From a virus: DNA of 50,917 nt. Numbering within the stretch: the first letter of the stretch is position 1; every line of letters begins with the position of its first letter. Below, in pieces: positions 1 through 44,085 of this stretch. Both the position numbers and the translations under genes were made by a program. The stretch lies in the IMG/VR virus record IMGVR_UViG_3300042112_000670, positions 1 through 50,917 of that record; one strand, 5' to 3'. The notes under the pieces were generated by a model. That model made no database searches. It was not told where the DNA came from and saw nothing but the letters and a program-made list of their open reading frames with translations.

Positions 1-1
1 A

Positions 2-97
2 TCGGGCAGTGAGCGGCATTACCTTGTGGGCGACATTCCTATCTACGCTAAGGCGTCAAGTGGCACGCCGACAATTCAAACGGAAGAACTAGCATGA
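2..97 (+). CDS. Virion-associated protein, C-terminal fragment cut by window edge
   Basis: This is an open frame of 31 residues running from the window edge to a TGA at 95-97. It matches the C-terminus of the complete gene at 40445-40816; both end in TPTIQTEELA. The stop overlaps the next start as ATGA, so the two genes are translationally coupled. The complete homolog is a small, probably beta-rich protein in the terminal module of the structural operon. Its exact role is unknown. Confidence 0.85.
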   Translation, partial: SGSERHYLVGDIPIYAKASSGTPTIQTEELA

Positions 98-408
98 CCG
101 TAGTCAACTCGGCTCTAATCGCAACTGTCTCAGTCGAGTCTGTATCTGCCTACACTATCAATAAATTAAATATGCCTTTGGCGAATACTGAATACTCGTT
201 CACATTCCCAGTAGGTACGAAGACTTTCGGTTTTAGAAATAGAAACTCAGGCACGCTGAAACTAAAGCACACGTCCGGTGGGGATTATTTTACCTTTGAT
301 CCGTATGTTACGAACTGGGTGAATGATATAAAATCATCCGCAGTGGTAACTGTCTATTTTGAGTCGCCTTCTGCTGCTCAGTACGTCGAACTGATTTACT
401 GGAGCTAA
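94..408 (+). CDS. Small structural-module protein, unknown function (copy 1)
   Basis: A 104-residue protein, near-identical to the product of 40813-41127; differences lie mainly in the first 35 residues. It is rich in Thr, Ser, Tyr and Phe with alternating hydrophobic residues, which suggests a beta-sandwich. It has no signal peptide or membrane segment. Its ATG overlaps the stop of the preceding gene, and it lies in a run of small co-directional genes that follow the ejection-type proteins in the complete copy. A virion or tail-tip accessory role is inferred from position only. Confidence 0.75.
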   Translation: MTVVNSALIATVSVESVSAYTINKLNMPLANTEYSFTFPVGTKTFGFRNRNSGTLKLKHTSGGDYFTFDPYVTNWVNDIKSSAVVTVYFESPSAAQYVELIYWS

Positions 409-477
409 ACTTTTCGGTTGGCCATCCGACACATGCCACGTTGTTAGGGTACATAAACTTTAATTGCGAGGTACACC
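409..477 (+). promoter_or_regulatory. Conserved 69-nt intergenic spacer (copy 1)
   Basis: The spacer between the two flanking genes is identical to 41128-41196 up to the last few bases before the start codon, although coding sequence on both sides has diverged between the copies. It ends in a GAGG ribosome-binding site six bases before ATG 478. No convincing sigma-70 promoter is visible. It may hold a leader, processing site or weak promoter; this is inference. Confidence 0.35.
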
Positions 478-1494
478 ATGAGTCAGACAGGTGCGGGCAA
501 AACTAAGATCGTTTTCGACAGTGCAGACGTTGCGAATAGCGACAACATTGGTGCTAATTTAATTGCGAACGGTACGCAGTTAACCGCTACAGGTACAGCG
601 TTAGACGTTAACGTAACAGCTTCGGCGTTGCCAACTGGTGCAGCTACCGAAACTACACTCGCCTCCATTTTGTCGTTGTTTCAGGCGTTAGATTTCGCTG
701 AAGACAGCGCGCACACGTCCGGCGACATGGGGATTCAAGCCCTTCTAGTTCGTCAAGACACACTTGCTGCGAGCACATCGGCTGACGGTGACTACGGCTC
801 GTTCAAGAGTAACAACCTTGGTGAATTGTATGTAAAAGACACCGGAGCAAATACAGCGCTTTCCGCGATCCAAGCAGTTCTTGAAGGATTGGACTATGCA
901 GACGGCTCCGCTTGGGCCGCTGGTTCAATGGGTATCGAAGCCCTAGCCGTTCGTAAAGATGCCTCTGGGCCGTTGACTGGTGTTGCTGACGGGGACTTCT
1001 CGCCGTTGCAAGTGAATGCAAACGGTGAATTGAAAGTCGCAGCGTCGATCACTATCGGTGATAACTATGCTGAAGACAGTGCACATTCTTCAGGCGCAGT
1101 GGGTAGCTTCTCGCTCGGTGTTCGCAACGACAACCAAGCCACATCGTTCACATCTGCGGACGGGGATTACTCCGGTTTTGCTGTTGACATCAAAGGTGCG
1201 CAATACGTTAAAGACGTTGCAGCGTCTTCTAATTTGCAGCAAATCGTAACCGTGGGAACATCAGCGGTACAACTTCCAGCTACTTCATTGAGCAACCGAT
1301 CATCCATGATGATTCAAATGCTTTCGAGTGGAACGTTGTACCTTGGATCTGCTACAGTGACTAACTCAGGCTCAACACGCGGATTTAGGATTGGTGACGG
1401 CGGATTCGTTTCTTTGGACGTTGGCCCAGCTAACTTGGTTTATGGTGTTGCTAACGCCGCTGGCAAAGACGTAATGGTTTGGGAGTTTGCATAA
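478..1494 (+). CDS. Virion-type protein with three tandem ~50-residue repeats (copy 1)
   Basis: A 338-residue protein. Three internal repeats lie at about residues 71-121, 138-187 and 195-246. Each has the pattern D-x-A-E/D-x-S-A, then V-R-x-D, then A-D-G-D-Y/F, then G-E/A-x-Y-V-K. The last 90 residues form a separate region with V-G-T-S-A-V-Q-L-P. Such DGDY-type repeats occur in phage structural proteins of unknown function. GAGG precedes the ATG by six bases. The homolog at 41197-42213 has the same length and differs in patches, mostly near the N-terminus. A decoration, fiber-base or adhesion role is possible. Confidence 0.75.
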   Translation: MSQTGAGKTKIVFDSADVANSDNIGANLIANGTQLTATGTALDVNVTASALPTGAATETTLASILSLFQALDFAEDSAHTSGDMGIQALLVRQDTLAASTSADGDYGSFKSNNLGELYVKDTGANTALSAIQAVLEGLDYADGSAWAAGSMGIEALAVRKDASGPLTGVADGDFSPLQVNANGELKVAASITIGDNYAEDSAHSSGAVGSFSLGVRNDNQATSFTSADGDYSGFAVDIKGAQYVKDVAASSNLQQIVTVGTSAVQLPATSLSNRSSMMIQMLSSGTLYLGSATVTNSGSTRGFRIGDGGFVSLDVGPANLVYGVANAAGKDVMVWEFA

Positions 1495-1496
1495 GC

Positions 1497-1802
1497 ATGA
1501 AAGTTTCAGAAGTTTCAGAGCAAGATTTACGGCACATGCACCAACTTAGCACGCTCATGAACACGGTTCAGTGTTCGGTTGGGTGGAAAGATCTGACGAG
1601 AAGCGGTGACGCTGTTCGTTGGCTCCAAAACTTAGTGCAGGATATGGCTAAAGCTTTCTCTCAGAAACCTTCTGAAAAGCCTGAAGGGGAGCTTGTGCCC
1701 CCTTCGGTTCCGGTAGAATCTAAACCATCTGAGCCGGGACTTCCCGGCTTGGGTGACGTTAAGATAAAGGCATACAACCCAGGTAAGCCAGGGAAGAAAT
1801 AA
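1497..1802 (+). CDS. Unknown small protein with Pro/Lys-rich tail (copy 1)
   Basis: A 101-residue protein starting MKVSEVSEQD. The first 60 residues look helical; the remainder is rich in Pro, Lys, Gly and Glu and is probably disordered. I chose ATG 1497 because it directly follows the preceding stop (TAA 1492-1494) and has GGGAG upstream; a longer in-frame start would overlap the previous gene. The stop overlaps the next ATG (TAATG). The product is identical to that of 42216-42521. Function is not recognised. Confidence 0.7.
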   Translation: MKVSEVSEQDLRHMHQLSTLMNTVQCSVGWKDLTRSGDAVRWLQNLVQDMAKAFSQKPSEKPEGELVPPSVPVESKPSEPGLPGLGDVKIKAYNPGKPGKK

Positions 1803-2131
1803 TGGGCAGCGGATTTTCAGCTGGGGATGTGTTCTCGGAAGTGCTGACAACGGACGGCACGACCACAGTCATTCGCGGCACTGCTACAACAACCTGGACA
1901 GCATACCCAACAACAGCAACCACCAATATCCAAAGCGTTGTCGTAGAAAATGACAGAGATGTTTCAGGGGGCATTCGCATTTGGGTGGCTCTGGATAACG
2001 CAGGAACAAACTATACTTCGCTTGGACCTGGCGATTCTTTAGAGATTACCCCCAAATCGAAACAGCAAATCTTCCTACGCACAAACTCATCTACAGCGAC
2101 ATTCAGTATGTGGGTGAATCGTGAGCTTTAA
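1802..2131 (+). CDS. Small beta-rich virion-type protein (copy 1)
   Basis: A 109-residue protein rich in Thr, Val and Gly, with a C-terminal region (about residues 50-109) that reads like a small jelly-roll or Ig-like phage head/tail accessory domain: I-R-I-W-V-A-L-D-N, then a Gly-Pro-Gly-Asp turn, then I-T-P-K. It starts at an ATG overlapping the previous stop and overlaps the next gene by 11 bp. It is identical to the product of 42521-42850. The role is inferred from composition and neighbours. Confidence 0.7.
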   Translation: MGSGFSAGDVFSEVLTTDGTTTVIRGTATTTWTAYPTTATTNIQSVVVENDRDVSGGIRIWVALDNAGTNYTSLGPGDSLEITPKSKQQIFLRTNSSTATFSMWVNREL

Positions 2132-2615
2132 TTTAAAGCGCACAGCAAGTGCTAGCATCACGGCATTTGACAACTCGACGAACGGGTTCGCTTCCACTAC
2201 GGTTCAGGCAGCCATCGAGGAAGCTAAACAATCTATACTTTCTGGGTCGCTGTCGTATCAACAAATAGCGGCAACATCCTCAACAACCACATCTTCCAAC
2301 ACCCCAGTCGCTATCAATTCCATGTCTCTAACCGTTTTATTGAGCGGGACATACCTTATAACTGGGACGTTGGCATTTTCTGCGTCAAGTTCAGGCGGCG
2401 ATGGTACGCCAGTAATCGGGCTCTATAAAAATGGCACGTTGATAACAGGCACCAATGCTTCCTTTTTTACAGGGGGCAACCAGGGGATGATGTATTCTCA
2501 AGGGATTATCACCACGCTAATAACTAGTGATGTGCTAACTCTCCGCTGGAACACCACTGGCGGGAAAACTTTGACTGGTAATATGCGGTCAATCATCATT
2601 GTTAGGATAGCTTGA
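2121..2615 (+). CDS. Tail-associated protein with C1q/TNF-like C-terminal region (copy 1)
   Basis: A 164-residue protein starting at GTG. Residues 13-35 carry the signature F-D-N-S-T-N-G-F followed by V-Q-A-A-I-E-E-A-K, common near the N-terminus of phage tail and fiber proteins. The rest alternates hydrophobic and Ser/Thr/Gly residues, in the style of a C1q-like jelly roll (L-L-S-G-T-Y-L-I-T-G-T-L and G-L-Y-K-N-G-T-L-I-T-G-T). It is probably a trimeric tail or fiber tip component. It is identical to the product of 42840-43334. Confidence 0.65.
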   Translation: MSFNLKRTASASITAFDNSTNGFASTTVQAAIEEAKQSILSGSLSYQQIAATSSTTTSSNTPVAINSMSLTVLLSGTYLITGTLAFSASSSGGDGTPVIGLYKNGTLITGTNASFFTGGNQGMMYSQGIITTLITSDVLTLRWNTTGGKTLTGNMRSIIIVRIA

Positions 2616-3118
2616 TGCCAGATTACTCTTACACTAGGAGCACTTCGTATCTTCCCGAGCAACTTATTGGGGAAATCCTGGCAGTTAATCCTACGAGTAT
2701 CTCCGGAGTCTCGACATCAGGCACCGATATAACGGTGCATGCTGGAGTATCTTTGACTCTTTTTGAGCAAGCTTCGGTAGAAACCGCCATTAGTTCGCAC
2801 GTCCCAAACACAGCACATGCCTATGTTTCTAGCGTTATCAAAAACGCAATCCAGTTCGGCAATCAACTATTGATCAACTATGCCGCTGAAAACGTGCTTC
2901 TCGGTATCACTACAGAAGGCAAGACAGGACAAGTATTAACAAAGCTGGCTTCCGTTCAGCTAGCATTGCAGGCGGGTTCGCTATACGAGGCAATCACTCG
3001 TATTAGGGCGACACCAACCTCTGAGTATGACGAAAAATACGTTACGGCTAATAGGCTCTTAGCATTCGTAAATAAAATCGAAACTTATCTTGGACTTCCT
3101 TTGAGCGAGACTTTATGA
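2615..3118 (+). CDS. Unknown structural-module protein (copy 1)
   Basis: A 167-residue protein starting MPDYSYTRST. I chose ATG 2615 because it overlaps the preceding TGA (TGATG) and has AGGA seven bases upstream. It has a beta-like first third and a helical C-terminal half; there is no signal peptide. Its stop overlaps the ATG of the small membrane protein gene (ATGA). It is identical to the product of 43334-43837. Position suggests a virion or late protein; function is not recognised. Confidence 0.65.
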   Translation: MPDYSYTRSTSYLPEQLIGEILAVNPTSISGVSTSGTDITVHAGVSLTLFEQASVETAISSHVPNTAHAYVSSVIKNAIQFGNQLLINYAAENVLLGITTEGKTGQVLTKLASVQLALQAGSLYEAITRIRATPTSEYDEKYVTANRLLAFVNKIETYLGLPLSETL

Positions 3119-3276
3119 ACATTCGAAAACTTATATCTGTCGTTGTCATGGTTACTATCGTTGTTCTTGCGCTATACGACGTGTATGCCTACACAGAAGG
3201 CGGCACTGAAGGAACAATAAGTCATCTTATCTTGTCATGGAGTTACGCGCATCCTATGGTGCCATTTATAGGCTGA
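3115..3276 (+). CDS. Small membrane protein, holin-like; in-frame UGA then continued frame (copy 1)
   Basis: A 53-residue protein with a membrane segment at about residues 5-21 (LISVVVMVTIVVLAL) and a Trp/His/Pro-containing C-terminus. The ATG overlaps the stop of the upstream gene. The frame continues after the UGA (followed by C) as LLSGHFWWR, which looks like a second membrane segment, but in this copy it ends within 11 codons because the repeat breaks at 3304. A holin or other late membrane protein is possible. It is too short for the usual minimum ORF cut-off. Confidence 0.55.
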   Translation: MNIRKLISVVVMVTIVVLALYDVYAYTEGGTEGTISHLILSWSYAHPMVPFIG

Positions 3277-3304
3277 CTTTTGTCTGGACATTTTTGGTGG
3301 CGCA

Positions 3305-4005: not shown

Positions 4006-4297
4006 AGTCACAAAAGTCATGGCAGAGACATTCAAACTCTCACAAGACAAATTTGTAGGGCTCGTAAGAGAACACGCTCTACTCGATGAAAACGGAAGCA
4101 TCAAAGAAAAAGACGGTCAGGTCGGAACATTTGAGATCCCAGACGCAAATCTGGCGGCATGGACAACCGCACTGGGCGGATTTATGGATTCCGAGGCTGA
4201 AATTGTGCTACCATCAGGGAAGCTATCCCTCGATGACTTAGCGAAGGTAGGGCTCACACCCGAAGACTTAACGGCGTTGTCGTTTATTGTCGAGTAG
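3872..4297 (+). CDS. Unknown 141-aa early protein, overlaps nuclease by 134 bp
   Basis: Starts at GTG 3872 with AAGGAG six bases upstream. The in-frame ATG of the nuclease at 3868 sits too close to that site, so the ribosome-binding site belongs to this gene. Residues 1-45 are basic and residues 60-141 are acidic, with D-L-A-K-V-G-L-T-P-E-D-L-T near the end. No family is recognised. It overlaps the VRR-NUC gene by 134 bp and the convergent polymerase gene by 14 bp. A role in replication is inferred from position only. Confidence 0.6.
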   Translation: MLKSKAHKVHVKQSALRNKFVIPALIKLEKSSNYPNIKTVKRVSEVTKVMAETFKLSQDKFVGLVREHALLDENGSIKEKDGQVGTFEIPDANLAAWTTALGGFMDSEAEIVLPSGKLSLDDLAKVGLTPEDLTALSFIVE

Positions 4298-6125
4298 GTA
4301 GTAGCCCCTCAATCTTATCAGCCAAGCTGCGTGTGGAATGCTCTATCCCGCTAGTGAGAGAAATCAATCTAGCGGGATACGTTTTTTCCATGATATCCCG
4401 AAGCTCATTTTCAATACCGGCCTCGCCATATGGGATCTCAAACACAAGTTCATCGTGAATCGTCAAAACCATTTTCGTCTTCTTACTCTGCAAAAACTCC
4501 GCAATCCGCACCATAGCAAGCTTCATCACATCCGCACATCCGCCTTGAATTAAATAATTTACTGCGGCGTAGGATTTGTCTCTGTTGCTCGTGACACGGC
4601 CAAACCAATTTACAACCACGCCTCTAATTTCGCTGCGCGCTTTTACCTGCGCGATAAATCGTGGAATCTCAGGGGAAGCGGAAAAAATTTTATCCATCAA
4701 ATCTTGCGCGGCGAATTTTGTGATGCCAAGCCTTTCTCCAATAAGGCCAGCACCACCACCGTAAAGCGTTGTGAAGTTAATGGTCTTCGCTTGTGCACGT
4801 GTTACTCCAGCGAGCTCGGCTGTCGCAGAGTGTACATCTTTGCCGTCTTTCACCTGAGAAATTAATCCGTGCGCTTGCGCATAGTCCATCATAAGACGGT
4901 ATTCCATCGCATCGTAGTCAAGCATCGCAAAATAGTGCCCTTCACGAGGAATAAATGCGCGCCTTGGAACAAACTCTGCTTTCAAGTCGTCGTCTTCGTC
5001 TTTTCGCAAATTTTGGAGGTTTGGATTTTGGCTCGAAAATCTCCCCGTAGAGGCACCATTTTGATTAAATGATGTATGCACCACATCATCAGAATCGGCC
5101 TGATACAAAAATCCTGCGTAGTAGTTGGAATTTGATTTAGCGTCACGGTACTCTAAAATAGTCTCTGCGACGGGAGAGGAAAACTTTTTCAATACGTCTG
5201 ACTCAAAGGTTGGATTACCTTTGTCGGTATACTCAAATTTTTCGCCGTCAAAAATTTCTGCGAATAATTTTCCCGAAGCCTTAAACGTCTTGCCTGTCGC
5301 AGCTTCAAAAAGTTTTTCTGCATCCGACATACGTTTTAGCTCATACTCCAGCGCCCGCTCGCAAAAGGTGCGGTCAATGAGCACGCCATGGGATTCCATC
5401 TCAAAAAGCACTTTCGTTAGCGCGCACTCGTTCTCATACACCTGCATAATTGACGGATATTTTGGATCACGCTTTTCATCCCGCTCCTTTAAAATTGCGC
5501 GCTGCTTCTCACCTAGCTTCCATGTAATACGCGCATCCTGCTCAGCATAGGGGCGGATGAGCTCATAGGGCACACGGTCGTAATGAAGGTTTTTGCTGCG
5601 TGATTTTTTTCCGGGTACGGTCTCCCACTCCCAAAGACCGTTTTTAAGAATGTACTCTTTAACCTTGTCGTCCTTGTCCTCTCCGCAAAAGTACTTGGCG
5701 CAGTACTCTAGGCTGTAGGAAGGAAGTGCGGAATAACACACCCTACCAATTGCGGCAGTGCAGTGGATATGCGCCAAAGGATTTAATTCAATCCCAGACG
5801 CTCTCAGCATGTGCATATCGAACTTGGCGTTGTGCATGTATATCGTGCCCACGAAGGCACGCAAAAGCTCTGCAAGCACTTTTGTGTCGAACACATCGGG
5901 GTGCTCAGGATGAAAATTCAAATACGCAACAGACTTTCCATCGGCGATGATTACCGAGAAAAATCGCGCACCATGATAGGGCCGCAGTCCCGTTGTTTCT
6001 GTGTCCAAAGAAATTGAGGGGGACTCTAAAATCCCCCTCAATCCTTCCATCACCACAGCCACATTACTCACAGCAACAGAACTTGGAACTACATCGCTAA
6101 TTTTTTGTTCGTCTTTTTTAACCAC
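4284..6125 (-). CDS. Family A DNA polymerase with 3'-5' exonuclease
   Basis: A 613-residue replicative polymerase. The exonuclease motifs are LDTETTG (Asp41, Glu43), HNAKFD (98-103) and YAEQD (193-197). The polymerase motifs are LDYDAMEYR (402-410; motif A, catalytic Asp403, diverged from the usual DYSQIELR), R443/K447/F451/Y455 (motif B) and HDE (557-559; motif C). Phe451 corresponds to E. coli Pol I Phe762. There is no 5'-3' exonuclease domain. The start is GTG 6125, which overlaps the upstream gene. It is the last gene of the leftward replication operon. Confidence 0.97.
   Translation of the reverse strand: MVKKDEQKISDVVPSSVAVSNVAVVMEGLRGILESPSISLDTETTGLRPYHGARFFSVIIADGKSVAYLNFHPEHPDVFDTKVLAELLRAFVGTIYMHNAKFDMHMLRASGIELNPLAHIHCTAAIGRVCYSALPSYSLEYCAKYFCGEDKDDKVKEYILKNGLWEWETVPGKKSRSKNLHYDRVPYELIRPYAEQDARITWKLGEKQRAILKERDEKRDPKYPSIMQVYENECALTKVLFEMESHGVLIDRTFCERALEYELKRMSDAEKLFEAATGKTFKASGKLFAEIFDGEKFEYTDKGNPTFESDVLKKFSSPVAETILEYRDAKSNSNYYAGFLYQADSDDVVHTSFNQNGASTGRFSSQNPNLQNLRKDEDDDLKAEFVPRRAFIPREGHYFAMLDYDAMEYRLMMDYAQAHGLISQVKDGKDVHSATAELAGVTRAQAKTINFTTLYGGGAGLIGERLGITKFAAQDLMDKIFSASPEIPRFIAQVKARSEIRGVVVNWFGRVTSNRDKSYAAVNYLIQGGCADVMKLAMVRIAEFLQSKKTKMVLTIHDELVFEIPYGEAGIENELRDIMEKTYPARLISLTSGIEHSTRSLADKIEGLLPTRQ
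4344..4387 (+). terminator. Rho-independent terminator inside the polymerase gene
   Basis: TATCCCGCTAG (4344-4354) and CTAGCGGGATA (4369-4379) form a perfect 11-bp stem with a 14-base loop, followed by C-G and six T at 4382-4387. Read rightward, this is a textbook intrinsic terminator for the nuclease operon. It lies in the 3' coding part of the convergent DNA polymerase gene, so the same bases also encode polymerase residues near the C-terminus. Confidence 0.8.
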
Positions 6126-7269: not shown

Positions 7270-7704
7270 TCATCCTTTAGTAAATGATAAGGTTACGTCG
7301 GTTGTGGCCTCAAGGCCCGGAATCTCGAAATCTTCATCTCCTCTTGCCGCAGCGGCTTCTAGCTCCTCCTTGTAAAAAGAATTTAACGACTGATGGTTGA
7401 ATGTCCAACTGTCATCAAAAATTCCTTTGCTGTCAAGATAAGCCCTAAGTGCCGCTTTCTTCTCTTGATCGTCCTTTGGAAACTTGACGGAAAACCTTGC
7501 TGATCGGGTTACGCGACCAAACTCGCAATTGAAACTCGTCAAGTTACTCTGCTCTAAAATTGGGATAATCTTATCCTCTAACCGCTTTTTGTTTTTCTCT
7601 AGCTCTGAAAGCTGCGCATTTAGGCCATCCTTTTGCGAGCGAACATCGCGCAACTCTGCAACCAAACCCTTCAAATCCGATAACGTCACATCCTTATAGT
7701 CCAC
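7270..7704 (-). CDS. Coiled-coil replication-module protein
   Basis: A 144-residue protein. Residues 8-50 form a predicted coiled coil (L-K-G-L-V-A-E-L-R-D, then L-S-E-L-E-K-N-K-K-R-L), followed by a compact domain with F-G-R-V and R-F-S-V-K-F-P-K. I chose GTG 7704, seven bases after AAAGGAG; TTG 7707 is the alternative. It overlaps the helicase gene by 11 bp and precedes the SSB-like gene by 3 bp. Similar coiled-coil proteins are common next to phage helicases. Function is unknown; partner or loader of the helicase is a guess. Confidence 0.65.
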   Translation of the reverse strand: MDYKDVTLSDLKGLVAELRDVRSQKDGLNAQLSELEKNKKRLEDKIIPILEQSNLTSFNCEFGRVTRSARFSVKFPKDDQEKKAALRAYLDSKGIFDDSWTFNHQSLNSFYKEELEAAAARGDEDFEIPGLEATTDVTLSFTKG

Positions 7705-9142
7705 CAACTATCTCCTTTAAAACTTTGAGACCAATCTCTTCCTTATTTGCTAAAGCCCTTGCCACGGCTTCGTCAATAGTATCCTTGGCTACCAAATCAA
7801 TCTGCGTGATCTTGTCGTGAATTTCACTTCCGCCTCGGTAGTTCCTAGCTTCACTTTGTAGGGCGTGCTCAAGCGAAAAATTTCGGCTAAAATTAACTGA
7901 GTAACTAGCAGCAACCAAATTAATCCCAATGCCACCTGCTTGAGGATTGCCAATAAGAACCCGCACGGCAGGGTCATTATTAAAACGGTCGATGTTCTTA
8001 AACTTCTCAGCGTTCGGTACGTCGCCGTGTATCTCGACTGACGGAATCTTAAGACCTTCGCACACCCTTCGGACGGCTGAATAATTTGCCTTGAAATTGC
8101 ACCAGACGAGAACCTTATGGTGAGGAGCGACATCAGAAAGTATATCGGCCAAAGCAGAGGCTTTAGGATTATCTGAAAACTCATGAATTGATTTCTCCTT
8201 TCCTGCGATGTCCTCAACTGAAAGATGCCCAGATGCGATCTGCATAAGACGCAGCGCCTTAACAAGCGCAATATTCGCCATCGCAACCGATCCGCCGATG
8301 TACGTCACGAGGTCACGCTCGACCTCAAGATAAGCCTTCTTCTGCTCGGCGGAAAGTTCGATGCTTATGGTCTTTCGTACCAATGGAGGAAGATCAAGGC
8401 AATCTTTCTTTTTCGCCTGAATGGACTTTTTTGAAATAATCTTTGAAATTTTATCGATTGTAGAAGGATAAGGTTTCCAATTAGGAAATTTTATATGCGT
8501 AGGCATTGAGCGGTTTGCATCAAAAAAATATTTGTTGCGAAAAGTAAAAAAATTTAAACCAAAACTCGCACCTTGATCCAAAATCTTAAACTGCCCAAAA
8601 ATATCCATAGGTGAATTTAGGATAGGTGTTCCGGTCATGATGATGCGATGTTTAGCTATCTTAGAAAGTTCAAACATGGCTTTGCTTCGGGAGGTCTTTG
8701 GATCTTTACACTTATGGATTTCATCCCCGATAAGGATATCAGGGCACCATTCCTTCAGTGCCGCCAAAAGCTCGCCCTTTTTGGCGTGAAGCTTTTCGTA
8801 GTTTATTACTAGCACTTTCTCTTTAGCCGTTTTGATGTCTTCAATCACACGCTCCGAAGAGCCTTTCAAAGCCCTAGCCTTCAGTGCCGAGTGCTCCGTC
8901 CACTCACGGACCCAGTTATCCAAAGTAATAAGCGGAGTCACAACTAAGACCTTCATCGCGCCACCGTGCGTGTGCATCTTCCACCGCGCAATCAAAACAG
9001 CCGTGTATGACTTACCTGTCCCCATCTCTTGAAACAAAGCAAAATCGCGCTGCTCTTTCGACATTTCCAAAGCGGTCAATTGGTGTTTCCACGGCGTTCC
9101 CCTAAAGTCAAACTCAGTCTTGCCGATAGGATTTGTAGCCAT
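7694..9142 (-). CDS. SNF2-type (SF2) DNA helicase/ATPase
   Basis: A 482-residue SF2 protein. The motifs are Q-E-M-G-T-G-K-S-Y (motif I, about 38-46), V-V-T-P-L (Ia, about 67), D-E-I-H (II, 140-143), M-T-G-T-P (III, 169-173), G-G-I-G-I-N-L (V, about 405) and Q-S-E-A-R-N-Y-R-G-G (VI, about 436). The layout matches phage SNF2-family DEAD-like helicases that remodel or translocate along duplex DNA. The start is supported by AAGGA five bases upstream. It is the first large gene after the cluster of micro-genes in the leftward operon. Confidence 0.93.
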   Translation of the reverse strand: MATNPIGKTEFDFRGTPWKHQLTALEMSKEQRDFALFQEMGTGKSYTAVLIARWKMHTHGGAMKVLVVTPLITLDNWVREWTEHSALKARALKGSSERVIEDIKTAKEKVLVINYEKLHAKKGELLAALKEWCPDILIGDEIHKCKDPKTSRSKAMFELSKIAKHRIIMTGTPILNSPMDIFGQFKILDQGASFGLNFFTFRNKYFFDANRSMPTHIKFPNWKPYPSTIDKISKIISKKSIQAKKKDCLDLPPLVRKTISIELSAEQKKAYLEVERDLVTYIGGSVAMANIALVKALRLMQIASGHLSVEDIAGKEKSIHEFSDNPKASALADILSDVAPHHKVLVWCNFKANYSAVRRVCEGLKIPSVEIHGDVPNAEKFKNIDRFNNDPAVRVLIGNPQAGGIGINLVAASYSVNFSRNFSLEHALQSEARNYRGGSEIHDKITQIDLVAKDTIDEAVARALANKEEIGLKVLKEIVGGL

Positions 9143-13204: not shown

Positions 13205-14053
13205 ATGCGCTCAAAGCATGTAGTATCACTGTCTCTAAACAAATCAATGAACCCAAAGCATCAAAAAGATTTCTACACCAAAGAACTCACAATTAAAGAA
13301 CTGTCAGAAGTAATCATGAAGGAAAATTGGTCCCCGTGTGTATGGGAAAATGGCGTGCGGTTTGGAAAGAACTTTGTAAGTGCTTCACTCATGGCCTTTG
13401 ATTTTGACTCCGGCATCTGGACACTCGAAGACGCAAAAGCCTATTTTTGCAGTACCAAAGCACCATTCATCCTCGCCACAACTAAGAGCCACCAAAAGCA
13501 AAAGGGCGAAAGTCCTCCGTGCGATAGGTTTCGGGTCATCGTTTGCGCGGACGAGTGCACTAGCATGCTGGATTATGTGCACACGATGAAACTCCTCTGC
13601 TCGGAGCTCCCTTGCGACAATAGCTGCACCGATGCCGCACGCTTTTTTTGGCGCTCTGTAGGAGATGTCGCGGTGTTTTCTGGTGAGGATGGCGGGCTTT
13701 TTCATTGGTCGAAGTTTGTGGAGGAACGGAAGTTCTTTTACAGAAGAGGCACCAAATCTCCGCTCGATTGGCCAAAGGATGTCTCGTTTTATCTGACATC
13801 CAGAGTCGAAGTCGGAGGAAGGCACAAAGCCTGCTACAGAATTGGTGCTGCTTTGGCTCGGCACGGCTACACAGAAGAGGAAGTGTTCGAGTTGTGCAAT
13901 GGATCTGTGAGCCTTATGGGCATCGGCGCAGACGAGGTGCGTCGGCAAATCGAGTACGGCTTTAGAGCAGCGGCGGCGGATTATGAGGAATACTGCAAAG
14001 GACAACGAGACAGCGGCGCTGTAAAAGAAAACGGCAGCAACACTAACAATTAA
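13205..14053 (+). CDS. AEP (prim-pol) family primase, stand-alone
   Basis: A 282-residue protein with archaeo-eukaryotic primase motifs: M-A-F-D-F-D at residues 63-68 (metal-binding Asp pair), T-T-K-S-H-Q at 92-97 with C-D-R-F-R-V-I-V at 106-113, and D-A-A-R-F-F-W at 143-149. A helical region follows (about 190-265). It would make primers for the polymerase, working with the SF3 helicase encoded 36 bp downstream; the pair corresponds to a split D5-like primase-helicase. The start may be ATG 13205 or 13247. Confidence 0.8.
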   Translation: MRSKHVVSLSLNKSMNPKHQKDFYTKELTIKELSEVIMKENWSPCVWENGVRFGKNFVSASLMAFDFDSGIWTLEDAKAYFCSTKAPFILATTKSHQKQKGESPPCDRFRVIVCADECTSMLDYVHTMKLLCSELPCDNSCTDAARFFWRSVGDVAVFSGEDGGLFHWSKFVEERKFFYRRGTKSPLDWPKDVSFYLTSRVEVGGRHKACYRIGAALARHGYTEEEVFELCNGSVSLMGIGADEVRRQIEYGFRAAAADYEEYCKGQRDSGAVKENGSNTNN

Positions 14054-14089: not shown

Positions 14090-15655
14090 GTGAGCGATAA
14101 ACTAGAAGGCGCAAAAGATGCAAACGAAAATGCAGACAAAAATGCAGACAGCAAAGAAAACGTCGTGAGCATCAAAAAAGTTGTGAACAAAAGAGGAAAT
14201 GGCGGAGGGGACGGAGGAAGCGGAGGCGGGCATAGTGCCTCTGAAAAGAAAAATTCTTTATGGGTCAAAAACCGGCAGCTTATCTCAGAGACAATTGGCT
14301 ACATAGAAAATCCGGCGACCAAAAATATGCCACACGGCAGAAGATTTGTTTGCGTGGAGGACTTAACTGCGAATGTCACGTTCGCTGAAGTACTGCAAGA
14401 TGAGGAAGGGCGGCTTACTAACATATTGCGGCCTACTTCCATCGCAGGACTAAGGCGCGCCGTTTGCGACTACGGAAGATCTTTAGGGTTTGAATATCAG
14501 AACCCCGCACCAAATAACGTTGAGGACGTTGTGCGCTGTATGCAGCATATGGCACGAACCATTAAGGCTGATTCCATACACTCCATACAACAGGCGCACG
14601 AGCACCACGGATGGACATGGGAAAAACTTCCGTTCTCATTAGATCAAGAAGGTGAAACACCCTATTTTGATAGCATCCTCAGCCGCTGCGATAATCCAGA
14701 GCCACTTATGGCGTGGATTGGCAGCCTCTTCGATGAAGAAGCCTCAAGGACACAGTACTGCTGGCTTTACGGAGAAGGAGATAATGGCAAAGGGCGGCTT
14801 CTTAGTTTTCTTTACAACATTTTCGGGCGAAGTGCGTGCAGCACACAGGCACCAAATAAAATGAGAGAACACTTTTGGGCGTACGAAATTTTCGGGAAAC
14901 GGTTTGTTTGCTTTGGCGATGAGGATAATCCGGCATTCGTCTCCACGGGCACATTTAAGTCTATAACAGGAGATGATTACGTGCGCATTGAAGGCAAAGG
15001 AATGCCTGCGATGAGCGTGAAGATGAAGTGCAAGTTTATTTTCTCTAGTAACAAGATCCCGAAAATGGATGACACATTGGCCAATAGAAAACGTGCGATG
15101 TACTTCGAGTTTAAGCCTCTTGAAAGCGATGTGAAAAAAATTTCTGAGGCACAATTTGACGCGGAGCTCTTGAAAGAGGCGGCCCCGTTTCTTACACGAT
15201 GCTACCGGCTATACATGCAGCTTTGCCCCAATCACGAGAGAATCCCCTATGCTGCGGAAAGCATAAAAGCTGTGTTTGAGGACAAAGAAGGCGAGGATAC
15301 GGTTGACGAGATGATTGCGGCGTGCATTGAGAGGCCGGAGAAAGATTGGAAGAAGAGCTTTATCACCGCGTGCGATATTGAGACGATTGTCAAGGCTTAT
15401 TATCCAAGTGCGAAAGGCAACCCGCCAAGCCAGCTTATAAGGAAAATATATGCGGCCATCGCCAAACAGTGGCCAGATTCACTAAGGACCAAGATTAAGA
15501 TCAAGGGCCAAAAGCAGGTCAGAGGCATTAGAGGGCTTACCTTAACCAACTCTGCGAGACGGACTTTTGGATTCGATAATCGGCCAGAACTCGTCGTTGA
15601 GGGATTTGAGGGCGATGAGGTGCCAAGTAAGGACGGGCAAAGTCATCTGCAATAA
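14090..15655 (+). CDS. SF3 (D5-like) replicative helicase
   Basis: A 521-residue protein. The N-terminal 55 residues are charged then Gly-rich (GGGDGGSGGG), probably a flexible linker. The SF3 core has Walker A G-E-G-D-N-G-K-G (228-235), Walker B R-F-V-C-F-G-D-E-D (271-279) and motif C K-F-I-F-S-S-N-K (315-322). A D5-type N-terminal helical domain lies at about 90-210. It starts at GTG with GAGG five bases upstream. It should unwind DNA at the fork or at the adjacent candidate origin. A rho-independent terminator follows. Confidence 0.88.
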   Translation: MSDKLEGAKDANENADKNADSKENVVSIKKVVNKRGNGGGDGGSGGGHSASEKKNSLWVKNRQLISETIGYIENPATKNMPHGRRFVCVEDLTANVTFAEVLQDEEGRLTNILRPTSIAGLRRAVCDYGRSLGFEYQNPAPNNVEDVVRCMQHMARTIKADSIHSIQQAHEHHGWTWEKLPFSLDQEGETPYFDSILSRCDNPEPLMAWIGSLFDEEASRTQYCWLYGEGDNGKGRLLSFLYNIFGRSACSTQAPNKMREHFWAYEIFGKRFVCFGDEDNPAFVSTGTFKSITGDDYVRIEGKGMPAMSVKMKCKFIFSSNKIPKMDDTLANRKRAMYFEFKPLESDVKKISEAQFDAELLKEAAPFLTRCYRLYMQLCPNHERIPYAAESIKAVFEDKEGEDTVDEMIAACIERPEKDWKKSFITACDIETIVKAYYPSAKGNPPSQLIRKIYAAIAKQWPDSLRTKIKIKGQKQVRGIRGLTLTNSARRTFGFDNRPELVVEGFEGDEVPSKDGQSHLQ

Positions 15656-15707
15656 AGCCAATGATTTCGTCACGGCGGTGTGACGGTTAGTGACAGGGTG
15701 ACGGTAC

Positions 15708-15745
15708 GGGTACAGGCGAAAATTTATGCCTGTACCCTTGTTTTT
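15708..15745 (+). terminator. Rho-independent terminator after the SF3 helicase
   Basis: GGGTACAGGC (15708-15717) and GCCTGTACCC (15728-15737) form a perfect 10-bp stem with a 10-base AT-rich loop, followed by TTGTTTTT. It ends the primase-helicase transcript. Confidence 0.85.
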
Positions 15746-15777
15746 ATCTGCGATATCATTTTGTTAGAGCAAAAAGC

Positions 15778-15986
15778 GACAGGTGACGGGTAATTTTCGA
15801 TACCTTAATATATATATCACACATACACACACGTATTATGCATATATCTCTTTCTCACCCGTATAATATATAAATTTATATGTCACCTGTCACTTTCAAG
15901 AAATAAGTACCGCAAATTAAAAAAGAAAATCGGTGTGACGATTAAAGGTGACGGCACTAAAAGGGACAGGTGATTTCCTGTCACCT
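15778..15986. repeat. Iteron cluster with core ACAGGTGA
   Basis: The 9-mer GACAGGTGA occurs at 15778-15786 and 15965-15973, and its reverse complement TCACCTGTC at 15883-15891. A related AAAGGTGACGG lies at 15944-15954. At 15968-15986, AGGTGA and TCACCT form a 6-bp hairpin. The elements sit on both sides of the AT-rich core and are candidate initiator-protein sites. Confidence 0.6.
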
Positions 15987-16069
15987 ACTCCCGAAAAGCT
16001 ATTACCTCGCCGTTGGGGAGGGTTGGAAAAGTGGGTGCGGTGATGGGATGCCGTTTAAACGCTCTAAAG

Positions 16070-16087
16070 TTGACGCTGTTGCGTCAA
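16070..16087. promoter_or_regulatory. Operator-like inverted repeat
   Basis: TTGACGC (16070-16076), TGTT and GCGTCAA (16081-16087) form a perfect 7-bp dyad. It could bind a dimeric regulator or be part of the origin region. No dedicated regulator gene is visible nearby. Confidence 0.35.
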
Positions 16088-16433
16088 ATGCTGCCGTAAT
16101 CAGCCTTATTCATTTTTTATACAAAACTCGTCAGGATTTGTTTTAGACGTTTTTAGAGGATGTGGCCAAAAATTGGATTTTCGGATTCCCAAAAAGTTTT
16201 CCCCTAGCGCCGATATGAGGAGTTTTTCGGTGGACCATGGGATGCGGGGTGTCAAAGGATTAGACAAGCGTCAAAGCGAAAAGACTGGGAAAACCGATGT
16301 TTTGACTAAAAACTAGTCGCTGGCGCAAAGGTTTTTGGCGGAAAAGGCTAAGGAATTATCGGTGGCACAAGGCGTGCAATAACTAAAGCAGGACTAATCA
16401 GCCTAAGGAGTGGGCGCAAATAATGGGTGCTTT

Positions 16434-16989: not shown

Positions 16990-17517
16990 ATGCTTAACAA
17001 AATGGCGAAAGCAGCACTAGAACTCGTGGATAAAAACGGAATGGGTTTTAGAAGAGTGGCACGACTTATAATAAAGGATTGCAAACTAACGTTGATTAGC
17101 ACAAATGGGTTTGGTGCGCTCAAGCAGGTGACAGCAATTCCCTCGGATCTTAGCGCGGCGGTTAGCGAAGTTAGCCTGAGCCATGCGGCACTAACAGCGA
17201 TTAGTAAGGCTAGACTCTTAAATCAGATAAGCATCACCGAAAGCACGATTGAGTTTTTTGATGGGAAAGCGCTTTCAAGGTTTCCCATCGTTCAGGAAAG
17301 TTTCCCCAACACCGATTTTATTTTTTCAAAAGATAGAAAACCTGTGAGCAGGAACACTGAATTCCTTATGGACGTAAACTTTCAAAAGATTTTTTACCAC
17401 AAAGACTTTCACGTCGAAATCGGCGCCAGCGCTGACGATGAAATGATTTTCTTTTCGGGTAAATCAGAAATCTTAGGTGCGAAAACTGATTTTGTGAAAG
17501 TGAGGATAACAAAATGA
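16990..17517 (+). CDS. Unknown 175-aa protein, weak sliding-clamp-like motif
   Basis: A 175-residue protein with alternating beta strands and helices. A stretch at about residues 92-112 (FFDGKALSRFPIVQESFPN) resembles the strand and R-F-P-x-x-x-x-x-x-P turn of bacterial beta-clamp domains. That is a faint similarity; the length fits one or one-and-a-half clamp domains. AAGGA lies nine bases before the ATG, and the stop overlaps the next ATG. A DNA-replication accessory role is possible; another fold is equally possible. Confidence 0.5.
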   Translation: MLNKMAKAALELVDKNGMGFRRVARLIIKDCKLTLISTNGFGALKQVTAIPSDLSAAVSEVSLSHAALTAISKARLLNQISITESTIEFFDGKALSRFPIVQESFPNTDFIFSKDRKPVSRNTEFLMDVNFQKIFYHKDFHVEIGASADDEMIFFSGKSEILGAKTDFVKVRITK

Positions 17518-18590: not shown

Positions 18591-19334
18591 ATGAGTAAGG
18601 CACTTGCCCTACAAGAAGGAGCGGAGCTTTCGCGCTTTGACTTCGACAATCCTCGCAGCATGGTGAACCTGATTGAATCTGATGAGTTCAGATTAGCGAT
18701 CCGCCGTGCTTTGGAGCAGGCTCCAAGTCTCTTTCAAATGGATGAGCCCAAGTTAGAAAAGGTGCGTTTATCGACGGCTTTGATGAACCGTTTAAGGCTC
18801 TCATTTTGGGATGAATACGACCGTGCAGTTTTTGCCGGTGAGCTGATGCAGATCAAAAATATTGTGGCTCGTCATTGCGACAGGGCGCACTTTTACGACC
18901 GTATTTTGAAGGTCAATTGGAACGTAGCATTTATCACGTTGCCGCCTAGAAGTTACGAATTGACGATGCGGTATATTCTTGATCGTGCGAACCGCAAGAT
19001 CGAAGACATTTTGAACATGCCTTTGAAGACTCCGCAGGGAAAATTCGACTACAAATTAGCGTCGTTGGTTTTAAAGATTCAGCAAGTAGCTGACAACAGA
19101 GTACGAGGTGCGGTCACGCAAAAGCTGCAAATTCAGCAGCACTCTACTTCGATGAATTTGACTCCTTCCGATTTTGACCGTCTTACGTTGCAAGAGCTTG
19201 ATGCGATTGACACGCGTGTGCAAAAAATTATTTCTGCCGACAAGACGGAAAAGCTTCCTTTATCTTCACCTCCGGAAAGAGTTGAGGTTTTGACCCTTGA
19301 ATCAGAAGATACAGAAAGCGGTAATCAAGCCTGA
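18591..19334 (+). CDS. Probable terminase small subunit or packaging partner
   Basis: A 247-residue, mostly helical protein immediately upstream of the large terminase gene. The C-terminal third is Gln/Ser/Thr-rich then acidic. Small terminase subunits recognise the packaging site and sit in this position, but I cannot see a clear DNA-binding helix-turn-helix, so the call rests on position, size and helicity. AAAGG lies ten bases before the ATG. It is the first gene of the late operon, and the next ATG follows its stop by one base. Confidence 0.55.
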   Translation: MSKALALQEGAELSRFDFDNPRSMVNLIESDEFRLAIRRALEQAPSLFQMDEPKLEKVRLSTALMNRLRLSFWDEYDRAVFAGELMQIKNIVARHCDRAHFYDRILKVNWNVAFITLPPRSYELTMRYILDRANRKIEDILNMPLKTPQGKFDYKLASLVLKIQQVADNRVRGAVTQKLQIQQHSTSMNLTPSDFDRLTLQELDAIDTRVQKIISADKTEKLPLSSPPERVEVLTLESEDTESGNQA

Positions 19335-19335
19335 C

Positions 19336-20889
19336 ATGACCTCCGCCGAGGCGCGGGTTGTAAAAAGGAAGATTGAGTCAGCGCGTGCAAAAAAGCGTGC
19401 TGAGCTTCCGCATTTGTACGGTTTCAAGTGGTACAAGTGGGCCAGAGAATTTTTCGAGACTAAAAATCAGATTTCATTTTTGACTGGTGGAAACCAGATT
19501 TCAAAATCGTCTTCTAACATTAGAAAGGCGATTGAGTACGCAACGAACAAGACTTTATGGAAAGAGTTGTGGCCGGAGAAAAATCTTCCTCCGAGGCAAT
19601 TTTGGTACTTCTATCCCGATGCCGCAACAGCAACGTCGGAGTTTGAAAAAAAGTGGGTGCCAGAGTTCATGCCTCGTGGCGACATGCAGATTCATAATGT
19701 TTACGGGTGGAAGGCTGAGTACAAGAAAAAAGAAATCGATTGCGTGCATTTTAACAGTGGTGTGACGATTTACTTTAAGTACTACTCGCAGGCTGTAAAA
19801 AATCTTCAGTCCGCAACGCTGCATGCGTGTTTCATTGATGAGGAGTGTCCGGAAGACTACTACGACGAACTTGCCGCACGTCTTTCCAGTACTGACGGAT
19901 ATTTTAGTATGGTGTTCACGGCCACCCGTGGGCAGATGCTTTGGTATCGCACCATGGAGCGCATTGGTTACGAAAACGAGGCGTTCAAGGGCGCGCACAA
20001 GCAAGTTGTTTCTTTATACGACTGTCAGTTTTATGAGGACGGCACGCCGGGTGCTTGGTCGCTTGAGCGCATCAAAAAGCGTGAGAGTGAGTGCAGCTCC
20101 GAGGCGGAAGTACAAAAGCGTGTGTACGGGCGCTTTGTCAAAGATGATGATTTGCGTTTCCCGCATTTTCAGGCGGCTCGTCATTTTGTGGAGCCCTATC
20201 CGATTTCAATGGATTGGCGTGTGTATGCTGCGGTCGACGTAGGTAGCGGTAGAAAAGCGTATTTGAACACGCATCCATCTGCTGGTGCGATTGTTTTCTT
20301 GGCAGTAAATCCGCAGTACACCAAAGCAGCGGTATTTAAGATCTGGCGCGGAGATGAGATGGAGACTTCCGCCGGAGATATTTTGGATCAGTACAGAAGA
20401 ATGCGTGCCGGCATCAGTGTCACGCAGGCGTGTTACGATTACGCGAGTAAAGAATTTGGTTTGATATCTTCGAGAGCATCTGAAAATTTTATCCCAGCCG
20501 ACAAAGGCAAGTTTAACGGCATCAACACACTCAACGCACTTTTCAAGCACGGGATGCTTGATATTTTCGACACTGAAGACGGCGAGAAGATGTGTGCCGA
20601 GCTCATGACCGCACCCGCCGAGAAAAATAGAAAGATACAGGACGATTTAACGGATGCTCTCCGTTACTGTGTGCTGCAAGTGCCGTGGGACTGGGGTTCC
20701 ATTCAGTTTTCCAAAGAAGAGCTTTTGCCTGTGAAGGAAGAGGGCATTGTGGACCGTCCTTTGACGGACACGGAAAAACTTGCCTTGCAGATAAGAGAGC
20801 GCAGGGGCGAGATGGAGCCCAAAGAAGAGGACGGCTGGATTGATATTGATCACGAGTTAACTTTTTGGAATGAGATGTATGGTAACTGA
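19336..20889 (+). CDS. terL: Large terminase subunit (phage X)
   Basis: A 517-residue packaging ATPase-nuclease from ATG 19336, one base after the preceding stop. Walker A is G-G-N-Q-I-S-K-S-S-S (51-60), Walker B is A-C-F-I-D-E-E (164-170) and motif III is T-A-T-R-G (195-199). The nuclease has V-D-V-G-S-G (Asp301), C-Y-D-Y (Asp368) and D-D-L-T-D-A-L-R-Y (437-444). A TTG at 19297 is the alternative start, overlapping the upstream gene by 38 bp. It differs strongly from the second terminase at 44086, so the two belong to different lineages. Confidence 0.95.
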   Translation: MTSAEARVVKRKIESARAKKRAELPHLYGFKWYKWAREFFETKNQISFLTGGNQISKSSSNIRKAIEYATNKTLWKELWPEKNLPPRQFWYFYPDAATATSEFEKKWVPEFMPRGDMQIHNVYGWKAEYKKKEIDCVHFNSGVTIYFKYYSQAVKNLQSATLHACFIDEECPEDYYDELAARLSSTDGYFSMVFTATRGQMLWYRTMERIGYENEAFKGAHKQVVSLYDCQFYEDGTPGAWSLERIKKRESECSSEAEVQKRVYGRFVKDDDLRFPHFQAARHFVEPYPISMDWRVYAAVDVGSGRKAYLNTHPSAGAIVFLAVNPQYTKAAVFKIWRGDEMETSAGDILDQYRRMRAGISVTQACYDYASKEFGLISSRASENFIPADKGKFNGINTLNALFKHGMLDIFDTEDGEKMCAELMTAPAEKNRKIQDDLTDALRYCVLQVPWDWGSIQFSKEELLPVKEEGIVDRPLTDTEKLALQIRERRGEMEPKEEDGWIDIDHELTFWNEMYGN

Positions 20890-28518: not shown

Positions 28519-30233
28519 TGGCCTACATCTACAGTCAACTAATCGCCGCACAGTTTGAAAACTTAGCTTCTGACCCAGCTAGCACTGCATCAGGTCTTGT
28601 GTACTTCAACACCACATCCAACATTTCCAAATACTACAACGGATCTGCGTGGAAAACTTTTCTAGCAGCCGATTTCAGTAACGTAACAGGAACTTTAGCA
28701 GTCGCAAACGGCGGCACAGGCGTAACAACATCGACAGGTTCAGGAAACGTGGTGCTTAGTACCTCGCCAACACTTGTTACTCCGGCGCTTGGTACACCTT
28801 CGAGCGCAACACTGACGAACGCTACTGGTTTACCGATTGATGGCGGCACAACTGGAACGCTTCCAATTTCTCGCGGCGGTACTGGGAATACTTCACAAAC
28901 CGCAGCGTTTGATGCGCTTGCGCCAACTACGACAACAGGCGACATTAGCTACCATAACGGCACTGACAACGTTCGTTTGCCTATTGGTACAGACGGGCAA
29001 GCGTTGTCGGTGTCTGGCGGATTGCCTGCGTGGGCAGCGGTTACTCCAACGCTTGATTCGTCAGCCGATCAATTGAACTTAGCGATATCTTGCTCAGTCG
29101 GATCAAGTGCGCTTACTATTGCATTGAAAGACAAAGCGGGAAGCGATCCTTCCGCAGGATCGCCGGTAAAAATTGGATTTAGAAACGCCACGGCTACAAA
29201 CGGAACTTATAACACCAGAAGCGTAACCGGTTCTCTCTCTGTAGTGGTTTCGTCTGGATCAACGCTCGGGCACGCAAGCGGAATCGCCTCTGACATTTTT
29301 GTTTACGCTATAGATAACTCCGGAACTGTAGAACTAGCTGTTTCTTCGACTTTGTTCGAAACTTTTGGATTAAAAACAACTACAGCCGAAGGCGGATCGG
29401 GCGCAGCGGATAGTGCGACAACTCTTTACTCAACGACAGCGCGAAGCAACGTCCCGATGCGCTTGCTCGGAAAATTGATTAGCACACAAACAACAGCAGG
29501 CACATGGGCAGCCGTACCTACGGAGACAGCTTTAGGCGGCCAGGCCGTCGGGTTCGGGATGGCTACTAGTACGCAGAGTGGGTTGGTTAGTACGACTACG
29601 CAAACCTTCGCTGGAGCAAAAACATTTTCTTCCGCAGCAACATTCTCTTCATCAATTTCAACGTCGGGACTATCTAATAGCGGATCGGCACTAGTGTCAT
29701 CCGTTGTAGGGAATCAATTCTCCGCAAGCAGTAATACAAATGGAACAGCTATCCTAGATGTTAGAAATTCCAACTCAACGGATAATACTTCCACGACAGC
29801 GCTGAGTGTTGGCTTAGTGGGATCGGGAACATTTACTGCGGCGGAATACATCAGATTTTATGATGGCGATGGAATCAACACTCGGACAGGGGCTATTCAC
29901 GGAAACGGTACCAGCGCGGTAAATTACGCAACATCGTCTGATGAACGATTGAAAGAAAACATTAATAACCTAGACAATGCGTCAGAGTTAGTAAAATGTT
30001 TACAGCCGAGAACGTGGACTTGGAAGAAAGACCAGTCAAACGGTGTTGGCTTTGTTGCTCAGGAACTATTGAAGGTTTGGCCGTCAGCAGTTTCTAAATT
30101 CGAAGATACTGATGCAATGTTAGCTGTTGATTACGGGAAATTAACCCCGTTACTCGCCGCAGCAATAAAAGAACTGCTGACTAAAGTCGAAATCCTCGAA
30201 AACAAGATTTCAAATATAGAGAATAATAGCTAA
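28518..30233 (+). CDS. Tail fiber with C-terminal S74 intramolecular chaperone
   Basis: A 571-residue fiber. The middle region shares [12 protein letters not shown] and P-I-S-R-G-G-T-G with the second fiber (48786-50714). The last 98 residues start S-D-E-R-L-K-E-N-I (from Ser474), with G-V-G-F-V-A-Q-E-L, the signature of the peptidase S74 (intramolecular chaperone) domain, which trimerises the fiber and cleaves itself off at the Ser. A coiled coil ends the protein. It is the likely receptor-binding fiber. Confidence 0.88.
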   Translation: MAYIYSQLIAAQFENLASDPASTASGLVYFNTTSNISKYYNGSAWKTFLAADFSNVTGTLAVANGGTGVTTSTGSGNVVLSTSPTLVTPALGTPSSATLTNATGLPIDGGTTGTLPISRGGTGNTSQTAAFDALAPTTTTGDISYHNGTDNVRLPIGTDGQALSVSGGLPAWAAVTPTLDSSADQLNLAISCSVGSSALTIALKDKAGSDPSAGSPVKIGFRNATATNGTYNTRSVTGSLSVVVSSGSTLGHASGIASDIFVYAIDNSGTVELAVSSTLFETFGLKTTTAEGGSGAADSATTLYSTTARSNVPMRLLGKLISTQTTAGTWAAVPTETALGGQAVGFGMATSTQSGLVSTTTQTFAGAKTFSSAATFSSSISTSGLSNSGSALVSSVVGNQFSASSNTNGTAILDVRNSNSTDNTSTTALSVGLVGSGTFTAAEYIRFYDGDGINTRTGAIHGNGTSAVNYATSSDERLKENINNLDNASELVKCLQPRTWTWKKDQSNGVGFVAQELLKVWPSAVSKFEDTDAMLAVDYGKLTPLLAAAIKELLTKVEILENKISNIENNS

Positions 30234-31165
30234 TGCGCCTCCTTCTTCTCGCATTTCTAATCACCTCCTGCGACATGAAGCCTAAGCATGTCGCGGTAGC
30301 CACAACTCATTCAATTGAGGATGTGATTAAAAAGCGCGACCTCTACGTTGAGTTAGCAAAATCTCATACTGATGAATCGGGATGGCTTGATTTTGAATGT
30401 GACGCGCTCTTGTTCAACAGCATTGCAGCATTCAGCGGATTTCCTGTTGACCCAACTCTTGCAAGACAATCTGACGGAAAGTGGCTGCGTCATCCAACAA
30501 AATCCTGCTATCCGAATGGCTCAAAGTCGAGCATTTCAAAAGACATGTTCAATGGCCTTATGCTCTGGGCTTTTTCAAACGGGCGGCAAGACGTTCTTCA
30601 GTCTATTTACGACTACGGTGACGCTAATGATTGGATCATGGGCGAGGCAATAGATTTTGCGACACTTATGTCACGAGTAGCATTCGCGCCAACAATGATT
30701 TACCGCCTAAAGATTATGATAGACGCACTAAACCCAAAACTCACAGGCGTTTTGATTGATGCAACAGACGAAGGGCTAGTGATTCTTAGGCAGAACTTTG
30801 AAGCGCACCTTCACGTCATCACAATCCTGCAAAACTACCTTGTCAACAAAGCCATCACTGACAACGAACTTGCGGTACTAAAAGCGTACACAGAACTAGA
30901 GCCGAATAATGCTCTATTTCACGCGATGCTAGGAAAGTTCACGGGCGATCAATCAAAAGCGATCAAGCTACTAATGGATGAGTCGCATTTTCCAAATGAT
31001 GCGCTCCCGACTTCAGAAAACCATTGCGCATCGTATCTTTGGCAAGAAGGTGAGCTAGAATACACGGATCACTTAAAAGAATTTTTTGAGTGGCGACCTT
31101 GCCCGCAGAATAAAACTCATTCAGGTGTTGACCTGATGTTCGTAACTAAGATTATGGAGCTTTAA
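30233..31165 (+). CDS. Phage lipoprotein A
   Basis: A 310-residue protein with a short signal peptide (MRLLLLAFLITSC) and lipobox L-I-T-S-C; the mature part is mostly helical. It overlaps the fiber gene by one base and the hydrolase gene by one base. The homolog at 50724 starts the same way and follows a related fiber. An 8-bp inverted repeat lies across the lipobox codons. A late lipoprotein could act in superinfection exclusion or in cell-envelope binding. Confidence 0.75.
   Translation: MRLLLLAFLITSCDMKPKHVAVATTHSIEDVIKKRDLYVELAKSHTDESGWLDFECDALLFNSIAAFSGFPVDPTLARQSDGKWLRHPTKSCYPNGSKSSISKDMFNGLMLWAFSNGRQDVLQSIYDYGDANDWIMGEAIDFATLMSRVAFAPTMIYRLKIMIDALNPKLTGVLIDATDEGLVILRQNFEAHLHVITILQNYLVNKAITDNELAVLKAYTELEPNNALFHAMLGKFTGDQSKAIKLLMDESHFPNDALPTSENHCASYLWQEGELEYTDHLKEFFEWRPCPQNKTHSGVDLMFVTKIMEL
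30270..30294. other. 8-bp inverted repeat in the lipoprotein gene
   Basis: GCGACATG (30270-30277), a 9-base loop and CATGTCGC (30287-30294). The same perfect stem is present in the homolog at 50761-50785, where the loop codons differ only in third positions. It could be an mRNA stem or a DNA recombination or binding site. Confidence 0.55.
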
Positions 31166-41127: not shown

Positions 41128-41196
41128 ACTTTTCGGTTGGCCATCCGACACATGCCACGTTGTTAGGGTACATAAACTTTAATTGCGAGGTTCACT
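41128..41196 (+). promoter_or_regulatory. Conserved 69-nt intergenic spacer (copy 2)
   Basis: Identical to 409-477 up to the last bases before the ATG, in a region where coding DNA differs between the copies. It carries the GAGG ribosome-binding site of the next gene. Confidence 0.35.
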
Positions 41197-42213: not shown

Positions 42214-42215
42214 GC

Positions 42216-43995: not shown

Positions 43996-44085
43996 CTTTT
44001 GTCTGGACATTTTTGGTGGCGCATAAGAGAAAATCCTAAACAGCCATAACTGTACCTTCTTCGGAAGATCAGTGGAGCTAGTGCC

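Follow-up and report, generated by a model that had tools for sequence, protein, structure and literature searches.

The SaPI replication origin lies directly downstream of rep. The origins of Gram-negative PICIs always contain two iteron sets that flank an AT-rich region, and one of them drove plasmid maintenance (PMC6092414). The alpha protein of phage P4 binds the repeats of its origin through a winged helix and then unwinds and primes the DNA, all within one initiator system (PMC4234260). The Sulfolobus plasmid pRN1 needs a stem-loop, with a 21-nt stem and a 58-nt loop, that stands beside a terminator and downstream of the primase-helicase gene. The pRN1 primase starts at GTG. The authors of the pRN1 work point to comparable arrangements in certain phages. 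By their account pRN1 is without iterons; GTG point mutations did not abolish replication unless the stem was broken (PMC4234260). In SCCmec, the D5-family helicase Cch2 binds to direct repeats that lie shortly past the gene encoding it. The origins of most tailed phages that are known only by sequence are unmapped.

Here we describe a cluster of short repeats at 15669–15984 of a viral record from IMG/VR (50,917 bp), the whole of which is referred to as the window. With a probability of about 0.82, the cluster is a phage replication origin that would be bound by the adjoining SF3 helicase, melted at 15788–15881 and primed by the neighbouring primase. The features on which this reading draws are as follows.

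4284–6125: family-A polymerase with exonuclease
7694–9142: SNF2-type helicase
13205–14053, + strand: primase-like protein of 282 aa, whose gene immediately precedes that of the helicase; PHROG DNA primase phrog_2135, E 2e-10
14090–15655, + strand: SF3/D5-type helicase, 521 aa, presumed origin-binding initiator; DUF5906, E 2e-17
15669–15702: outer left iteron group, exact GTGAC matches at 15669 (−), 15680 (+), 15690 (+) and 15698 (+)
15708–15748, + strand: intrinsic terminator of the helicase operon; 11-bp stem, hairpin 15708–15737 plus T-run, −20.3 kcal/mol, z −4.0
15776–15787, + strand: inner left pair of iterons, GCGACAGGTGAC; part of the left arm of inverted repeat 15773–15802
15788–15881, no strand: AT-rich stretch, presumed DNA unwinding element; holds the 85-bp stretch with the highest AT content in the window
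15882–15893, − strand: inner right iteron pair, GTCACCTGTCAC on the + strand; inverted versus the left pair, and pairs with 15773–15787 in the DNA fold
15935–15984: outer right iteron group, GTGAC at 15935 (+), 15948 (+) and 15980 (−), near-site GGGACAGG at 15963 (+)
16990–17517, + strand: possible sliding clamp (DNA polymerase processivity factor), a downstream replication gene; phrog_947, E 2e-4
19297–20889: putative large terminase; the preceding gene is at 18591

The helicase gene and the site cluster behind it

The closest solved relative of the 521-aa helicase is the SaPI5 primase-helicase 7ola, both by sequence (E 7e-10) and by fold (E 1e-11), and a profile made from the helicase plus its relatives matches the SaPI5 primase-helicase with an E-value of 1e-75. 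In the helicase alignment of 32 members, 26 match Pfam Pox_D5; the 14090–15655 protein does not. Structure prediction from the single helicase sequence gave a pLDDT of only 34, and the 32-row alignment was used instead. In the resulting model the AAA+ core has a pLDDT of 72–92, and residues 430–481 are predicted with moderate confidence (pLDDT about 65–78) to follow the order H-H-E-E, which is that of a winged helix. A profile of the relatives aligns to the helicase only up to residue 415. The winged-helix-like order at the C-terminus of the model is a hint, not proof.

The primase-like protein also matches further PHROG primase and helicase-primase families and is 27–30% identical to primases of Vibrio phages across some 70% of its length; in Pfam its only match is a sub-threshold one to PriCT_1. 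Toprim has no match in the products of 13205–14053 or 14090–15655. Elsewhere in the window, matches to terminase, major head and tail fibre are found.

A non-coding gap of ~0.75 kb extends from the stop codon of the helicase gene to the next gene at ~16410. The first ~330 bp of this gap contain ten exact copies of GTGAC within 15669–15984, six on the + strand (15680, 15690, 15698, 15783, 15935 and 15948) and four on the − strand (15669, 15882, 15889 and 15980). The first site starts 14 bp past the helicase stop codon, and two near-sites, GCGACAGG at 15776 and GGGACAGG at 15963, add to the set. The original prediction counted at least seven sites in both orientations, and its own patterns indeed give seven overlapping sites: GTGAC[AG]GG at 15690 and 15783 (+) and at 15886–15893 and 15977–15984 (−), and ACAGGTGA at 15779 and 15966 (+) and at 15883–15890 (−). 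Behind the cluster, ~425 bp are without a gene (15985–16409); inverted arms, TTGACGCT/AGCGTCAA, occur there at 16070 and 16267. Rfam and tRNA searches gave no matches.

The count of GTGAC in the whole window is at chance (84 versus 83 expected), so the signal of the cluster is purely local. Ten copies occur in 15656–16000, compared with a mean of 0.58 and a maximum of 4 in shuffled sequence; none of 5000 shuffles reaches ten, and the Poisson tail for ten copies is 6e-10 at the window's own GTGAC rate. When any 6-mer is scored in every 400-bp stretch, the cluster is the top of the window and is equalled by 2 of 100 shuffled windows. At the level of the sites the enrichment test is strong; the blind test across the genome is moderate.

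The inner pairs GCGACAGGTGAC and GTCACCTGTCAC are mutually inverted and enclose 15788–15881. Between them lie the most AT-rich 85 bp in the window (15791–15875, 74% AT), in agreement with the 85-bp AT-rich stretch that had been reported amid the sites. The flanking arms, 15773–15787 and 15882–15896, pair in the DNA fold (z −2.5). The cluster had also been placed right after the SF3 helicase gene and after its terminator; the former is correct and the latter is not, because the terminator is embedded in the cluster: four of the sites come after the helicase stop codon and ahead of the hairpin.

GC skew had been proposed as a check on the origin. The cumulative GC-skew minimum is located at about 12–13 kb, 2.7–3.7 kb upstream of the cluster and thus off the site. 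Skew in the window tracks gene direction, and it therefore neither supports nor refutes an origin at the cluster.

The same plan in distant relatives

Nucleotide and single-protein searches for close relatives returned only identical records or nothing; conservation was therefore tested in distant relatives by a motif-blind repeat scan. An exact-motif test was passed over because the cores of the relatives differ, and a five-sequence helicase alignment was too divergent to serve as a search query. The count of the commonest 5-mer per window is not discriminating, as shuffles reach 10, and a composition-corrected score was used in its place. This score is heuristic; other gene ends serve as its internal control, and it is not a full evolutionary model.

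The strongest short-repeat cluster genome-wide is located at a helicase 3′ end in six of seven genomes, the exception being a Silvanigrella prophage. Among IMG/VR relatives of the 14090–15655 helicase, 57 of 68 loci have their strongest cluster at this position, versus 5.6 expected (15 of 22 when made non-redundant, p 5e-12). For relatives of a second helicase family the corresponding figures are 35 of 75 loci versus 5.9 expected (non-redundant 20 of 45, p 2e-11). Helicase 3′ ends carry a strong cluster, with a score of at least 9, in 37/68 loci of the first family and 28/75 of the second; for the 3′ ends of other genes in these loci the counts are only 6/304 and 6/677. In 25 of 32 clusters, the two sites closest to the AT-rich stretch face opposite ways; among other neighbouring sites of those clusters, on one side of the stretch, the share is 38%. 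Related loci in this comparison are not fully independent. The cores differ between phages and include GTAAC, GTTAC, GTGAC, GTAAG, GTTAG, GGACAC, TAGACA and others. Dozens of related phages share this layout at the corresponding position, though spelled in different letters. Of the motif conservation that was looked for in relatives, the layout is kept and the exact letters drift. The iteron-type origin layout that had been proposed matches the SaPI/PICI plan and recurs, in many phages and far above chance, at the 3′ ends of SF3-type helicase genes.

The main counter-examples to the origin reading are the two closest relatives of the helicase, the Silvanigrella prophage and L118, the latter being the closest one detectable in IMG/VR: behind the helicase gene neither has such a cluster. 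In the second helicase family, about half of the members also have no cluster at this position. At two loci, strong clusters are found 0.8–1.7 kb past the helicase gene, L051 at 7901–8300 (GGTTAC, ten copies) and L056 at 7351–7750 (CATCGG, 15 copies), and that of L051 may be a displaced origin. Among unrelated phages (L037–L195), many iteron clusters have a GTNAC core or one that differs little from it.

A second cluster on a 77-kb circle

The record IMGVR_UViG_3300042199_000463 (75,217 bp) is identical to window positions 1–49024, and its other end shares 100 identical bases with the window end, an overlap that closes a circle of 77,010 bp. Beyond the window, the circle encodes a different primase-helicase, which is of the Toprim type, has 833 aa and finds its closest named phage relative in Bdellovibrio phage phi1422 (33%). 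Twelve copies of GTGAC stand behind this gene on the same plan as at 15669–15984, in four regular triplets with the order +++, terminator-like hairpin, −−−, +++, AT-rich stretch, −−−. This second cluster occupies 74059–74365 of the circle (in L015, on the reverse strand) with 8–13 bp spacing, and its first triplet is inside the 3′ end of the helicase gene, where it codes for SVTEIVTQSVT. In the ranking of short-repeat clusters on the circle, the second-half cluster is first and the 15669–15984 cluster is second. The two helicases of the circle are related only via the AAA+ core (profile comparison of the two families, probability 73%).

A direct repeat of 3.3 kb is found at window positions 1–3304 and 40720–44023, with an overall identity of 95.4%. 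Differences are frequent up to 1404 and there are none at 1405–3304, which leaves a 1.9-kb identical block; beyond the repeat the sequence is unrelated. The 3.3-kb blocks separate two phage gene sets on the circle, with two large terminases and two primase-helicases. The 77-kb circular contig is due either to recent recombination or to a figure-eight assembly from two phages that occur together. Neighbouring tail-region proteins of the two halves (30233–31165 of the window and 50724–51656 of the circle) are 91% identical, which suggests a recent exchange of a tail module, and most other genes are unrelated. It is quite unlikely that the circle, rather than being an assembly artefact, is one real molecule of two complete phages joined via the 3.3-kb block, with an SF3-type initiator and an origin for each and with the same GTGAC core in both origins though the helicases are almost unrelated; in such a molecule the initiators might read each other's origin.

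Proposed origin function, alternatives and known systems

In the mechanism that we propose, the SF3 helicase would bind the GTGAC iterons, probably via a putative C-terminal winged-helix domain. The opposed inner iteron pairs across the AT-rich stretch would, to judge from their symmetry, set two helicase hexamers head to head. By analogy with the SaPI and pRN1 models, the hexamers would then melt the AT-rich stretch and move apart. The primase, whose action at the cluster was part of the original prediction and is here inferred, would lay primers, and the gene content suggests that the family-A polymerase and the clamp-like protein would extend them. The terminator in the cluster may stop transcription of the helicase operon from crossing the origin.

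The sites could also be operators, with a phage repressor or activator on GTGAC that controls a promoter for the genes from about 16410 or tunes the helicase operon. The cluster is positioned between two co-directional gene groups, as operators might be, and one sigma-70-like match on the − strand (15893–15865) overlaps the sites. Shuffled sequence, however, averages 1.9 such matches, and no promoter-like match is present on the + strand of the region. Across many unrelated phages, moreover, the cluster goes with a single kind of gene, that of the SF3 helicase, at its 3′ end, and the core letters drift while the plan of sites flanking an AT-rich stretch stays. This pattern fits an initiator that recognises its own origin better than it fits varied regulators, and an operator function is distinctly unlikely. 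A packaging (pac/cos) or partition site in place of an origin would be another explanation, since repeat arrays mark partition sites too and the gene that precedes the putative large terminase, at 18591, follows the cluster at a distance of about 2.6 kb. We regard it as scarcely probable: the conserved neighbour in relatives is the helicase, and no ParA/ParB gene among the families searched adjoins the cluster.

The paired arms bear on an origin of a different kind, a structural one like the pRN1 stem-loop, in which a hairpin or cruciform would be read by the primase-helicase and the GTG of each site would be a priming start. The required stem-loop of pRN1 likewise stands beside a terminator past the primase-helicase gene, and its primase starts at GTG (PMC4234260). 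Ten repeated sites nevertheless far exceed one stem-loop, whereas pRN1 has no iterons, and its GTG point mutants replicate as long as the stem is intact (PMC4234260). Pairing of this kind is a by-product of inverted binding sites, and a structural origin is very unlikely here.

The reading of the cluster as a SaPI-like origin, a known kind of origin, in a tailed phage is well supported by comparison. Together with the relatives, it offers a simple rule for phages whose primase-helicases are of the SF3/D5 type: the helicase 3′ end should be searched for clustered short repeats on both sides of an AT-rich stretch, and the motif need not be known. Because the letters drift while the plan stays, this set of phages suits the study of how initiator and origin change together.

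Compared with the known systems, P4 alpha is one fused Toprim primase-helicase, whereas primase and helicase are separate genes here, which sets the locus apart from the P4 type. The pRN1 origin shares the location just past the primase-helicase gene and near a terminator, the inverted arms and the GTG/CAC letters, but it is a stem-loop and lacks the ten iterons of this locus. The putative origin of SCCmec Cch2 has only three 5-nt iterons in one 23-bp region, together with the CCPol-MP primer synthesis system. The likeness to SaPIs and PICIs comprises the SF3-type Rep helicase adjoining a primase, the origin right after rep and the two iteron sets on either side of an AT-rich region. Unlike these satellites, the present element is a tailed phage that carries terminase, head and tail genes of its own as well as a family-A polymerase, and its array has a GTGAC core and a terminator within it. 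On our reading the site would work like a PICI origin, yet the element is not a PICI, as the window carries its own terminase, head and tail matches.
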